Shown: piece after piece, positions 10,897 to 26,539 of the stretch
How the letters are laid out: each line of letters begins with the position of its first letter
How positions within the stretch are numbered: the first letter of the stretch is position 1
Assembly: GCF_030409325.1 (NCBI RefSeq)
Contig: NZ_JAUFPR010000003.1
Span: 186,001 to 250,000, forward strand
Length of the DNA stretch: 64,000 nucleotides
Direction: 5' to 3'
DNA from: Mucilaginibacter aquaedulcis
Lineage (GTDB): Bacteria; Bacteroidota; Bacteroidia; Sphingobacteriales; Sphingobacteriaceae
Position numbers and translations under genes: made by a program
Notes under the pieces: generated by a model
The model's input: the letters and a program-made list of their open reading frames with translations, nothing else
Databases searched by the model: none
Told to the model about the DNA's origin: nothing

Positions 10897-12954
10897 TTAT
10901 GCCTGTTCTTGCTCAACCCAATTACCGTCATCTTTGATGATGCCGATCAGTTCGTCGAGCGCGTTGGCGGCGCTGATGTTTTTCTTTACAGCTTCCTTAC
11001 CGCGGTACAGGGTAATTTTATCGGTTCCCGAACCTACATAGCCATAGTCCGCATCAGCCATTTCACCAGGACCGTTTACAATGCAGCCCATGATGCCGAT
11101 TTTCAGGCCTTTCAAGTGACTGGTACGGCTGCGGATCATCTGGGTAGTAACCATCAGATCAAACAGGGTACGGCCGCAACTTGGGCATGATATATATTCT
11201 GTTTTGGATATGCGCGAACGCGTAGCCTGCAAAATACCAAACGCGGTAGAGGTGACCACATTGGCGGGTAATTCAGGTGCATCTATCCAGATACCATCGC
11301 CAAAACCATCAACCAGCAAAGCACCCAGATCGGTAGAGGCATAAAGCTGAAGTTTGGTAACCAGTTGTGAGTTTTGAGTTTTGAGCGAATTTTCATCTTC
11401 TAACTCATTACTCATTACTCCGAACTCATAACTTCTTTTCACTATCACCGGTACTTCCAGCCCCAGTTCTTCCAGTTTAAAGAAGAAACTACGCTGATCG
11501 GCCATGCCATGTAAGGCAGTGGTTTCCAGTACCAGCACCAATGAGTTATCAAAAGGCAGGGAACCAAATTCGTCCGATTCTATATCCGAATGCTGTATCC
11601 TTACCAGGTTTAATTTTGATGAACGGTCTGCATCGGCGCTAATATATTCTGCCAGTGAAAATACCGGATGGCAATTGGTTTTATCAGCCAGTTTTTGCCA
11701 GGTGCTATAGTTATAAAGCTGTTTTAAGTTGCTCGGAAACGTGAACGATGGCAATGCATCGGCCAGGTAAACAAAATCAACCGATTGCTCGGCCATGTTG
11801 TATTTATCAAGCAAAGGCGAGTAGATATAACCTGCATCTTTCAGTACAGCCGGATCTTTCAGGTTTTTAGCTGAAAGGTCAACCACCACCCTCGGTACCA
11901 TATGTCCGCCTATAAAAGCATTGGCTTCATAGGTATGGCGTTTTTTGTACTCGTAGGGGTTGTGTATTGTAAGTGCTGAGTTGTAAGTATTGAGTGTTGA
12001 ATTTTCCGATCCGAAATTTTGACTTTCAACTTTTGAATTTTTACTTCTCTCCGTATATCGTTTCACCAGTTCAATCGCAACAGGAGCTTCCGCTTCTGGT
12101 TCTTCGGTGAGCGAAACGCGAACGGTATCACCCAAACCATCTTCCAACAGTGTACCAATACCCACGGCCGATTTGATGCGGCCATCTTCGCCATCACCGG
12201 CTTCGGTAACGCCAAGGTGCAGTGGGTAATTCATTCCCTCAGCCACCATCGTTTCTACCAATAACCGGTAAGCCTGAACCATTACCTGCGGATTGCTCGA
12301 TTTCATGGAGATCACGAGGTTATAAAAGTTCAGTGTTTCGCACATCCGCATAAACTCCATAGCCGACTCCACCATGCCTTGCGGGGTATCACCATAACGG
12401 CTCATAATGCGATCGCTCAACGAGCCATGGTTAGTGCCTATGCGCATGGCTGTGCCATACTCTTTGCAAACCTTAACCAGTGGTGCAAACTTTTTGTAGA
12501 TACGGTCGAGCTCGCCCTGGTATTCCAGGTCGGTATAATCTATCTGGTCAAATTTCTTTTTATCGGCGTAGTTGCCAGGGTTTACCCGTACTTTTTCAAC
12601 AATGCGGGCGGCTACCTCGGCAGCGTTGGGTGTAAAATGTATGTCGGCTACCAGCGGTACATTATATCCGCGTTGGCGAAGTTGTTTCTTGATCTCGGCC
12701 AGGTTTTGAGCCTCTTTAATGCTGGGAGCGGTAATACGCACATATTCGCAACCAGCATCAACCATGCGGATAGATTGCTCTACTGTACCAATGGTATCCA
12801 TGGTATCGGTAGTGGTCATGCTTTGTATGCGGATAGGGTTGTTAGCCCCCATGGGCACATCGCCAATAGTAACCTCGCGGGTAACAAAACGTGAGTATTC
12901 GGTTAGTGAATTACAATAACGGCCTTGCAGCAACTTTACAGCATCAGTATTCAT
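10897..12954 (-). CDS. ispG: (E)-4-hydroxy-3-methylbut-2-enyl-diphosphate synthase with large insert
   Basis: Iron-sulfur enzyme of the MEP isoprenoid pathway (GcpE), converting MEcPP to HMBPP. At 685 residues it is the long three-domain form found in plants, Chlamydiae and Bacteroidota. The N-terminal TIM barrel carries VPLVADIHFTPN and RVNPGNY. The C-terminal cluster domain carries Cys590 and Cys593 (SCPSCGRT), Cys624 (GIMGCIVNGPGE) and Glu631. The ATG at 12954 was preferred to a TTG nine codons upstream. Residues about 302-328 and 506-531 are low-complexity, hydrophilic inserts encoded by inverted 7-bp repeat arrays. They look foreign to the fold but keep frame. Confidence 0.95.
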   Translation of the reverse strand: MNTDAVKLLQGRYCNSLTEYSRFVTREVTIGDVPMGANNPIRIQSMTTTDTMDTIGTVEQSIRMVDAGCEYVRITAPSIKEAQNLAEIKKQLRQRGYNVPLVADIHFTPNAAEVAARIVEKVRVNPGNYADKKKFDQIDYTDLEYQGELDRIYKKFAPLVKVCKEYGTAMRIGTNHGSLSDRIMSRYGDTPQGMVESAMEFMRMCETLNFYNLVISMKSSNPQVMVQAYRLLVETMVAEGMNYPLHLGVTEAGDGEDGRIKSAVGIGTLLEDGLGDTVRVSLTEEPEAEAPVAIELVKRYTERSKNSKVESQNFGSENSTLNTYNSALTIHNPYEYKKRHTYEANAFIGGHMVPRVVVDLSAKNLKDPAVLKDAGYIYSPLLDKYNMAEQSVDFVYLADALPSFTFPSNLKQLYNYSTWQKLADKTNCHPVFSLAEYISADADRSSKLNLVRIQHSDIESDEFGSLPFDNSLVLVLETTALHGMADQRSFFFKLEELGLEVPVIVKRSYEFGVMSNELEDENSLKTQNSQLVTKLQLYASTDLGALLVDGFGDGIWIDAPELPANVVTSTAFGILQATRSRISKTEYISCPSCGRTLFDLMVTTQMIRSRTSHLKGLKIGIMGCIVNGPGEMADADYGYVGSGTDKITLYRGKEAVKKNISAANALDELIGIIKDDGNWVEQEQA
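11363..11437. repeat. Heptad palindromic array inside ispG (copy 1)
   Basis: On the plus strand 7-bp units start at 11363, 11370, 11377 and 11384 (type AGTTTTG). After a 12-base centre, units start at 11403, 11410, 11417, 11424 and 11431 (type ACTCATT). The two arms are inverted relative to each other. The register is exact and the 75-bp block keeps the ispG frame open, adding about 25 residues. Confidence 0.85.
11972..12049. repeat. Heptad palindromic array inside ispG (copy 2)
   Basis: Left-arm units of type AGTnTTG start at 11972, 11979, 11986 and 11993. Right-arm units of type ACTTTnn start at 12022, 12029, 12036 (degenerate) and 12043. The centre, 12000-12021, contains GATCCGAAAT. The 78 bases are 26 codons and keep the reading frame. 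Confidence 0.85.
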
Positions 12955-12978
12955 GCCTGGATATGAATTAATAAGATG

Positions 12979-12986
12979 CAAAAATA
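12979..12986 (-). promoter_or_regulatory. Putative ispG -7 promoter box
   Basis: TATTTTTG on the minus strand is a perfect TAnnTTTG match 24 bases before the chosen ispG ATG. No convincing TTTG was found at the -33 distance. Confidence 0.4.
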
Positions 12987-25366: not shown

Positions 25367-26311
25367 TTAATCTATCTTAAACAACTGGCTTATTGAGCCA
25401 TGTTCGTTTACATTGCCTATGGCTTTTGCAAACAGCTCGGCAGTTGAAAGTACTCTAATTTTTGAGCTCTGGTGTTTCAATGGTATGGTATCTGTCACTA
25501 TCAGCTCGGCCAGGGCAGAGTTTTCGATAGTTTCATAAGCCTTACCTGATAAAACCGGGTGTGTACAAACCGCGCGAACACTACGTGCACCACGCTCCAT
25601 AATTAAACCGGCCGCTTTAGCCAAAGTGCCTGCCGTATCACATATATCATCAATCAGTACAATATCCTGATCGGTAACATCGCCAATAAGCGTCATTGAC
25701 TCAATTTCATTGGCGCGTTTGCGGCGTTTATCGCAAATAACCACTTCGGCGTTAAAAAACTTGGCGAAGCTGCGTGCCCTGTATGAGCCACCCATATCCG
25801 GCGAAGCAATGGTTAAGTTCTCAAGACCCAGGCTTTTGATATAAGGTACAAAAATGATAGATGCATCCAGGTGATCAACCGGTATATCAAAAAAGCCCTG
25901 TATCTGCGCTGCGTGCAGGTCCATGGTCATGATACGGTTAATACCTGCTGCAACCAGCAAATTGGCAACCAGCTTAGCACTAATGGCAACGCGTGGTTTA
26001 TCTTTCCTGTCCTGACGGGCCAATCCAAAATAAGGGATAACGGCACTTACGTAGTGTGATGATGCACGGCGGGCGGCATCAATCATCATTAGTAATTCCA
26101 TCAGGTTATCAGTAGGCTGGTGAGTGCTTTGAATCAGGAACACATCGCATCCCCTTACAGATTCATTAAAGTGCGGCTGAAATTCGCCATCACTAAAACG
26201 GGAGAGTACCACATCACCCAGGTCCCGGCCATAAGCATCAGCAATTTTTTTGGCGAGCTCCTTAGAGCCTGATCCTGCAAATAACTTAACGGGATTAAAT
26301 TGTAATGGCAT
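25367..26311 (-). CDS. prs: Ribose-phosphate pyrophosphokinase
   Basis: Makes PRPP from ribose-5-phosphate and ATP for nucleotide, histidine and tryptophan synthesis. The 314-residue protein matches class I PRPP synthetases: KLFAGSGSKELAKKIA at the N-terminus, the FSDGEFQPHFNESVRG region, the flexible-loop and ATP-binding segment YFGLARQDRKDKPRVAISAK, the PRPP-binding VLIDDICDTAGTL, and the late C-terminal ITTD-like segment. It heads the prs-rplY-pth group. Heptad palindromic repeats lie on both sides of it. Confidence 0.96.
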   Translation of the reverse strand: MPLQFNPVKLFAGSGSKELAKKIADAYGRDLGDVVLSRFSDGEFQPHFNESVRGCDVFLIQSTHQPTDNLMELLMMIDAARRASSHYVSAVIPYFGLARQDRKDKPRVAISAKLVANLLVAAGINRIMTMDLHAAQIQGFFDIPVDHLDASIIFVPYIKSLGLENLTIASPDMGGSYRARSFAKFFNAEVVICDKRRKRANEIESMTLIGDVTDQDIVLIDDICDTAGTLAKAAGLIMERGARSVRAVCTHPVLSGKAYETIENSALAELIVTDTIPLKHQSSKIRVLSTAELFAKAIGNVNEHGSISQLFKID

Positions 26312-26317
26312 TTTTTT

Positions 26318-26465
26318 ATTTGGGATTTGGGATTCCGGATTTCGGATTTTTAATCATCACGAGTCCGAATCTTGAAACGTAAAGCCTATATAAAAAAACA
26401 ATTTCGGATTTCGACCTTTAAACCGGATTAAATCCGAAATTCAAAATCCGTAATCCGAAATTGAA
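26318..26465. repeat. Heptad palindromic array between tRNA-Gln and prs
   Basis: Left-arm units start at 26318, 26325, 26332, 26339, 26346 and 26353 (types ATTTGGG, ATTTCGG). Right-arm units start at 26431, 26438, 26445, 26452 and 26459 (types AATCCGA, AATCCGT). Two further left-type units start at 26401 and 26408. The right arm ends 3 bases from the 3' end of tRNA-Gln. The remainder of the 26312-26753 gap, beyond the tRNA, holds only AT-rich sequence. Confidence 0.85.
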
Positions 26466-26468
26466 ATG

Positions 26469-26539
26469 TTGCCCGACCAGGATTCGAACCTAGACAAACG
26501 GTACCAAAAACCGTCGTACTACCATTATACTATCAGGCA
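26469..26539 (-). tRNA. tRNA-Gln (anticodon TTG)
   Basis: A 71-base cloverleaf. The acceptor stem TGCCTGA pairs with TCGGGCA (one G-T pair), the T arm has GGTTCGAATCC, and the anticodon stem ACGGT/ACCGT encloses a 7-base loop with TTG, reading CAA/CAG codons for glutamine. CCA is not encoded. The discriminator base is A. Confidence 0.95.

Follow-up and report, generated by a model that had tools for sequence, protein, structure and literature searches.

Heptad palindromes translated in two variable loops of ispG in Mucilaginibacter, and their place among 7-nt repeats

Introduction

The origin of hairpin arrays built of 7-nt units, and the reason why their units change, can be addressed in two loops of IspG, an enzyme regarded as essential. 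The ispG gene of Mucilaginibacter aquaedulcis carries such a hairpin within its coding region, and lies in a 64,000-nt stretch of contig NZ_JAUFPR010000003.1 (positions 186,001 to 250,000) that is here called the window; all coordinates count from its first letter. The sequence-only reading of this DNA had assigned the hairpin to a mobile or amplification-prone class of elements. Because ispG is one conserved gene with many replacements at two fixed points, a known frame and a tree, mobile insertion and local slippage can be told apart there. The gene is also an example, outside Rickettsia, of a housekeeping gene that has repeatedly taken up translated palindromic DNA.

The palindrome and its reading frame

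The features of the ispG locus are as follows.

10897–12981, minus strand: ispG (gcpE), long form, the host gene, a 694-aa open frame with Pfam/TIGRFAM-type model matches
11363–11437, no strand assigned: heptad palindrome in loop 2 of IspG (repeats, inverted arms, fold), ORF residues 515–540
11363–11385, plus strand: first arm, AGTTGTG AGTTTTG AGTTTTG AG, NNTGAGT class as read on the plus strand
11386–11399, no strand assigned: spacer of 14 nt between both arms, the hairpin apex
11400–11433, plus strand: inverted arm, CTAACTCATTACTCATTACTCCGAACTCATAACT
11960–12055, no strand assigned: second, more decayed heptad array of ispG (AGTYN/ACTYA class), located in loop 1 at the end of the first GcpE stretch

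The identity of the host gene is given by PF04551 (E 1.7e-125) and TIGR00612 (above cut-off), and the long-form model NF002534 matches at E 1.3e-219, yet falls short of the 886 bits set as its cut-off. Nine codons into the ORF there is an in-frame ATG. Counted from this inner ATG the palindrome encodes residues 506–531, and the span of about 506–531 given by the sequence-only reading is right if translation starts there.

Two AGTTTTG units (11370–11376 and 11377–11383) follow an AGTTGTG at 11363, and ACTCATT occurs twice in the inverted arm (11403–11409 and 11410–11416), exactly where they had been reported. Both heptads can be obtained by rotating NNTGAGT or its complement. Tandem Repeats Finder returned period 7 at 11363–11385 (3.3 copies, 93% matches) and at 11401–11433 (4.7 copies, 76% matches). 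The arms are mutually inverted, as had been claimed, the best pair being 23 nt long and 78% complementary; a search for inverted pairs with longer seeds detected none for this palindrome. The z-scores of its predicted RNA fold are -3.91 (coding strand) and -5.22 (opposite strand), and none of 200 dinucleotide shuffles folded as well. An exact 17-mer search and a GARTT pattern search each gave a single match in the genome, and Rfam models scoring over the gathering threshold in the 64-kb window were limited to two tRNAs. The palindrome is a genuine feature, beyond chance.

The heptads are in frame within a protein gene, as Rickettsia palindromic elements are, and the residues they encode are hydrophilic and simple, in agreement with the earlier description. 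In coding DNA, every third unit of a TGAGTNN array gives an in-frame TGA. The only heptad of the inverted arm, read on the coding strand, in which the T is due at codon position 1 is GGAGTAA instead of TGAGTNN, and for this reason the arm contains no stop. A possible case of the frame switching by unit number that marks phase-variable simple sequence repeats is the ispG of the relative G014 (G014:C54:38950–41150, L277), in which the frame is broken inside the heptad array of loop 1; the break coincides with an A7 run, and a sequencing error is possible.

The ispG loops across the family and genus

The family comparison covered 60 ispG genes, namely that of M. aquaedulcis and those of 59 of 60 family relatives, a partial match (G033) being left out. 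Thirty lag-7 self-match segments with scores of at least 10 were found in 17 of these genes, and 29 of the segments fall within two loops, ORF residues 308–350 (loop 1) and 512–542 (loop 2). Lags 5, 6, 8, 10, 11 and 13 gave 0–5 segments each, lag 9 gave 20 (two in the loops), and lag 14 gave 24 (23 in the loops), so that inside the loops lags 7 (29) and 14 (23) stand against 0–2 at the other lags tried. That a hydrophilic loop is of low complexity by chance, with which the simple residues would agree, is contradicted by these loop counts together with the fold z-scores of the palindrome on both strands, and is scarcely credible. A lag-7 segment of score 10 was found in none of the other 43 family genes, and the residues of the palindrome are therefore not common to homologues; they form an insertion relative to relatives.

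Within the genus the arrays are far more widespread. ispG was present in 30 of the 31 genus genomes searched, and in the genus set of 32 genes (those of M. aquaedulcis, G036, G051 and G014 plus 28 loci) 62 lag-7 segments occur in 30 genes, while lags 5, 6, 8, 10, 11 and 13 give 0–5. The units include AAAGGCA/CCTTTNA, AAAGTCA, AAAGCTG/CAGCTTT, ACCATGG, ACAACCC and others, and, judged by eye, the inserts have neither a fixed sequence nor a peptide in common. Several unit classes are thus seen among the loops and an intergenic element described below, in line with the earlier claim of different heptads at different places. In G530 and G547 the loops appear, by eye, to hold other palindromes instead of heptad arrays. 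The nearest relative by IspG, G564 (90%), has ACCATGG heptads where M. aquaedulcis has NNTGAGT. Loop 2 measures 75 nt in M. aquaedulcis and 33–39 nt, with no array, in G565, G562, G552 and G547; it is also short in G036, where a weak lag-7 segment (score 10) spans the loop once the flanks are included. At the other extreme, loop 1 of G550 (L355) carries a very long translated ACAACCC array with a lag-7 score of 66.

Such arrays might have arisen purely locally, by 7-nt-biased polymerase slippage in place, with template switching of the nascent hairpin making the inverted arm and nothing moving. Unit number does differ among species, and there is a likeness between the edge of the array and conserved coding sequence: TATGAGTT, found at this edge, also occurs in the conserved flank of G564, which would fit local seeding. 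A slippage account of heptamer excess has also been published (Mrazek 2007, as cited in the available text of PMC4692102 and PMC4679880).

Turnover of insert classes and co-variation of arms

Changes of insert class were counted on a quickly built tree comprising 31 IspG proteins of the genus, with the loop columns removed and G014 left out for its frameshift. On visual assignment of classes and without shuffling of labels, at least 19 changes are required in loop 1 and at least 17 in loop 2, and recombination between the ispG alleles of different species could inflate these counts. Nine of the 28 inner branches of the tree are starred, and starred nodes with class changes are G570/G566, G559/G554, G551/G555 and G530 vs G556/G560. 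Close species differ in their loops by replacement of the whole element.

At a node with support of 100, both loops of G530 hold a non-heptad palindrome and the same loops of G556 and G560 hold heptads, which speaks against the local account. This second palindrome family, non-heptad by look, has the forms TAAATCTCCCCC..GGGGGAGA and CCCTCTCC..GGAGAGGG, the former also read as CCCTCTAAATCTCCCCC..GGGGGAGA, and two copies of the G530 look lie outside ispG in a 364 kb sample of the M. aquaedulcis genome (L035 ~18770 and L044 ~11927). The occurrence of such palindromes in loops that otherwise hold heptads indicates that the ispG loops take at least two unrelated families of palindromic repeats, which, judging from these sequences, slippage alone would find hard to explain.

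Members of the non-heptad family stand in frame in the ispG loops of G530, G551, G559, G554 and G552 (L336, L338, L350, L352 and L341). A further palindrome, CCCGATAGCTATCGGGA, occurs twice in loop 1 of G547 (L353), once as a shorter copy.

Arm complementarity was compared with that of permuted partners in 43 ispG genes, comprising the 32 of the genus and 11 from other genera that were chosen for having arrays; kinship was ignored. Own partners scored 9.14 against 6.84 (sd 0.39) for permuted ones in loop 1 (p 0.0002, 43 loops), and 6.15 against 5.11 in loop 2 (p 0.002, 27 loops of at least 45 nt). This co-variation of arms fits either hairpin-templated copying or arrival of the whole element.

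Other heptad structures in the window

The sequence-only reading had claimed that the same architecture recurs at four other places. Two of these were recovered in the window, the loop 1 array at 11960–12055, which is weak, and an intergenic element at 26311–26466; the other two were not confirmed. The intergenic element is described by a further feature line.

26308–26466, no strand assigned: intergenic heptad hairpin, GATTTCGG class, beside a tRNA gene (26469–26539, minus strand)

The fold of the loop 1 array (z -0.77) is weak and not clearly better than that of shuffles, and this bears on whether the inserts have a selected function, either as a regulatory RNA hairpin in the ispG mRNA or as a useful protein linker. 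The palindrome at 11363–11437 folds well on both strands and long ispG inserts are common in the genus, as such a function would lead one to expect, but insert sequence, length and even presence vary between close species, the fold of the second array is weak, and the 43 family genes with no segment of score 10 make up most of the set. A selected function is accordingly unlikely.

The intergenic hairpin has a fold z of -2.74 (26311–26460) and is recognisable at the orthologous site of other genus members. With loci read in one orientation, the site could be placed between both flanks in 16 of 28 loci (M. aquaedulcis included), and by eye the right arm is kept in 15 of these 16, whereas the element is mostly decayed in G554 and its left arm is gone in G562. 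The right part of the element (26400–26466), directly 3' of the minus-strand tRNA gene, is well conserved in the placed genus loci (L357–L384), and may serve as a terminator of the adjoining tRNA.

Dispersed copies and candidate mobilising enzymes

What characterises the GATTTCGG class is a fixed arm of 32 nt, ATTTCGGATTTCGGATGTTCGATTTCGGATTT, in which the third heptad is irregular. Allowing up to 3 mismatches, this arm was searched for in 151 family genomes, with the reversed sequence as control. There are 30 copies in the M. aquaedulcis genome, the arm occurs in 17 genus genomes out of 19, with 85 matches in G510 and none in G489 or G500, and was not found in any of the 132 family genomes outside the genus; the reversed control gave 0 everywhere save 4 in G510. 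Among the matches listed, five close pairs of arms run plus then minus (e.g., C3:618228/618295 and C1:588117/588278), and at C4:7075–7287 three direct copies are followed by an inverted one. The earlier statement that the elements are not defined by fixed sequence is thus right for the variable loop inserts, and fails for this one genus class with its conserved arm. The ACCATGG class is likewise dispersed, being present in 17 of 31 genus genomes (control 0) and occurring outside ispG in 5/5 of the carriers in ispG that were searched, vs 12/26 of the other genomes.

Against a purely local origin, the same heptad classes lie at unlinked places, and an arm with an irregular third heptad is present 30 times in one genome and is confined to the genus among the 151 family genomes. 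Taken with the differing loops of G530 and G556/G560, this leaves local origin as a possible but less probable account. The dispersal of the 32-nt arm and the ACCATGG copies outside ispG favour copying between loci.

One source of such copying would be the mobilisation of REP elements by RAYT, a Y1 transposase. REP elements are short palindromes of 20–40 bp with REP-associated tyrosine transposases (PMC3733652 and PMC2817692, in their available text). In size and copy number the 32-nt GATTTCGG arms resemble REP elements, with which they share the trait of short, high-copy palindromes between genes. Two Y1_Tnp genes are present in the genome, and a GATTTCGG-class array lies ~150 nt past the end of one of them. 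However, the palindromes that flank this gene on both sides are, by eye, of another kind (GCGCTCGTT..AACGAGCGC plus one near copy), no heptad array occurs in the 3.3 kb locus of the other Y1 gene, many heptad classes rather than one would need serving, and REP elements lack the 7-nt period. With no Y1 gene carrying heptad palindromes as its own flanks, the RAYT explanation was not upheld and is very improbable.

As an observation in its own right, the Y1-transposase gene at G000:C8 ~315216 (L079 1340–2110) is RAYT-like, with flanking palindromes of its own that comprise the GCGCTCGTT..AACGAGCGC pair, near copies of it, and GGCGATTGCATCGCC.

Proposed origin of the ispG insert

The reading that we favour, with somewhat better than even confidence, is that a dispersed, non-autonomous palindromic repeat with tandem 7-base arms has one of its copies at 11363–11437, where it is tolerated in a permissive loop of IspG and was later reshaped by slippage and arm templating. 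Such repeats sit mostly between genes, and the two hypervariable IspG loops, which are probably exposed linkers, would tolerate in-frame heptad elements. Elements may reach ispG by copying from other genomic copies; after arrival, slippage would alter the number of units, hairpin-templated copying could preserve the complementarity of the arms, and selection would retain only frame-preserving, stop-free variants. The insert is most likely selfish or neutral DNA that the enzyme does not need. No mobilising enzyme was found, and in an unsystematic look neither target-site duplications nor fixed ends were noticed.

Relation to known repeats

Heptanucleotide repeats of cyanobacteria have reportedly been treated by Costa (2002), Mazel (1990, as STRR) and Vioque (1997), and Rickettsia palindromic elements are said to have been described by Ogata (2000 and 2002). 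The sequence-only reading knew of no described family with such rules, and this needs correction in part: NNTGAGT hairpins in the trnL of Nostoc (PMC4476775) and heptameric repeats (PMC4692102, PMC4679880) are described in the available text of these papers.

Heptads make up the P6b stem of the tRNA-Leu(UAA) intron of Nostoc and Calothrix, the unit being TDNGATT in Class I and NNTGAGT in Class II, and in lichen-symbiotic Nostoc Class I has replaced Class II repeatedly and independently; the same source, in the part available, states that the evolutionary origins of the two classes are not known (PMC4476775). The ispG heptads resemble the P6b repeats in their 7-nt units, in the pairing of hairpin arms, in class replacement at one site and in the unit NNTGAGT itself. 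The P6b repeats, however, lie in a structured cyanobacterial RNA, whereas the ispG heptads form an in-frame, translated part of a Bacteroidota protein gene, and the heptads of Mucilaginibacter are also dispersed between genes and show more classes at one site.

Heptameric repeats are over-represented and have been attributed to polymerase slippage (PMC4692102, PMC4679880). TAACTGA heptamers are patchily common to Beggiatoaceae, Cyanobacteria and five Bacteroidetes (PMC4679880), and GGGNATC heptamers occur in Xanthomonas and Nostoc (PMC4692102). As far as the available text of these papers goes, they share with the elements studied here 7-nt units, a mostly intergenic location, a patchy distribution across phyla and occasional translation (LSVISYQ), and they are mainly direct arrays of one unit, with some inverted pairs mentioned. 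The ispG heptads differ from them in having inverted arms, degenerate units and class switching within one conserved gene.

Rickettsia palindromic elements, in the accessible part of PMC10969869, are translated palindromic DNA, and what they have in common with the ispG inserts is palindromic selfish DNA standing in frame in metabolic genes. They are ~150 bp long, form ten families and have a conserved peptide, whereas the ispG arms consist of heptad arrays and encode no conserved peptide. The kind of element found here is thus partly described, under heptanucleotide hairpins, heptameric repeats and Rickettsia palindromic elements, and the ispG insert behaves as a tolerated, translated palindromic repeat within a wider, partly known world of 7-nt repeats. 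A literature search mostly outside subscription journals gave no account of palindromes built of heptads within ispG, nor of inserts in Sphingobacteriaceae that switch class, and ispG as an in-frame landing pad for inserts of changing class looks new.

Period 7 in the genome and in other phyla

A sample of 364 kb, consisting of the window and 15 stretches of 20 kb, was scanned for self-matching segments with scores of at least 11. Lag 7 gave 27 segments vs 4 in one dinucleotide shuffle, with 2–10 at lags 4–6 and 8–13, 0–14 at lags 15–20, and 20 and 22 at the multiples of seven, lags 14 and 21. The sequence-only reading had named two outcomes that would speak against insertion, namely palindrome residues shared by most homologues and a missing period-7 excess, and neither was found. 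ORFs make up 84% of the sample, and 15 of its 21 arrays (score at least 12) lie outside them, 3 partly so and 3 inside; two of the last three are the arms of the 11363–11437 palindrome. In 400 kb from relatives the lag-7 excess is modest (21 vs 16 at lag 6 and 1–10 at lags 4, 5 and 8–13), and in 400 kb from two cyanobacteria it is strong (65 vs 29 at lag 9 and 4–19 at lags 4–6, 8 and 10–13), both being judged against the other lags alone.

An inverted partner (score at least 13, within 150 bp) was found for 11 of the 21 arrays of M. aquaedulcis (no score above 12 in either control). The proportion was 5/19 in relatives (controls 2/19 and 1/19) and 11/60 in cyanobacteria, where it is not clearly above one of the controls (6/60 and 1/60). 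Four-unit TGAGTNN arrays were found in 88 of the 395 genomes of the phylum that were searched, a count for which the reversed control is uninformative as the pattern reads the same backwards. Five-unit arrays, among the matches listed, come from many phyla, and the NNTGAGT class is also present in Nostoc and Calothrix records. Of 85 perfect five-unit arrays (80 loci), 8 are accompanied within 250 bp by an inverted partner of two units, compared with 2/85 for far flanks. Inverted arms, which had been proposed as a defining feature, therefore hold for about half of the arrays in this genome, but many arrays elsewhere are plain tandem, and the inverted form is one state of a wider class.

The heptad hairpins of Bacteroidota, cyanobacteria and other phyla might even be a single mobile class, set by 7-nt spacing and arm complementarity instead of sequence, in which a copying activity that measures 7 nt re-templates both arms. 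This is a doubtful proposition, and if it were true, heptad identity could be replaced wholesale with the architecture intact, and the ispG loops would be an insertion record.

The idea that every heptad consists of five fixed and two free bases, which visual inspection and the published NNTGAGT had suggested, was dropped, as variants within arrays do not cluster in two phases. The share of variation in the best two phases of 57 arrays was 0.640 against a null of 0.633 (sd 0.020), and three other settings fell below the null; variation in all phases is what slippage plus point mutation predict, and to that extent it agrees with a local origin.

Heptad profiles were also compared with permuted units, with a view to a possible common descent of these elements and the cyanobacterial repeats. 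The M. aquaedulcis profile gave z 3.0 on relatives, 3.6 on cyanobacteria and 2.9 on mixed phyla. Of the nine remaining train/test pairs, transfer between cyanobacteria and mixed phyla reached z 5.6–6.6, these sets not being independent as the mixed one contains cyanobacteria, and transfer to M. aquaedulcis gave 2.7 from relatives, 2.0 from cyanobacteria and -1.2 from mixed phyla. Five of the nine lie between -1.5 and 1.3; among them, the profile of relatives gave -1.1 on cyanobacteria and 1.3 on mixed phyla, and relatives as the test set gave -1.5 with the cyanobacterial profile and -0.2 with the mixed one. A single universal heptad grammar was thus not upheld and has partial support, with profiles that transfer between some sets and not others. 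Clear NNTGAGT hairpins (TGAGTGC../..GCACTCA) were seen in records of Acidobacteria and Chloroflexi (L108 and L147).
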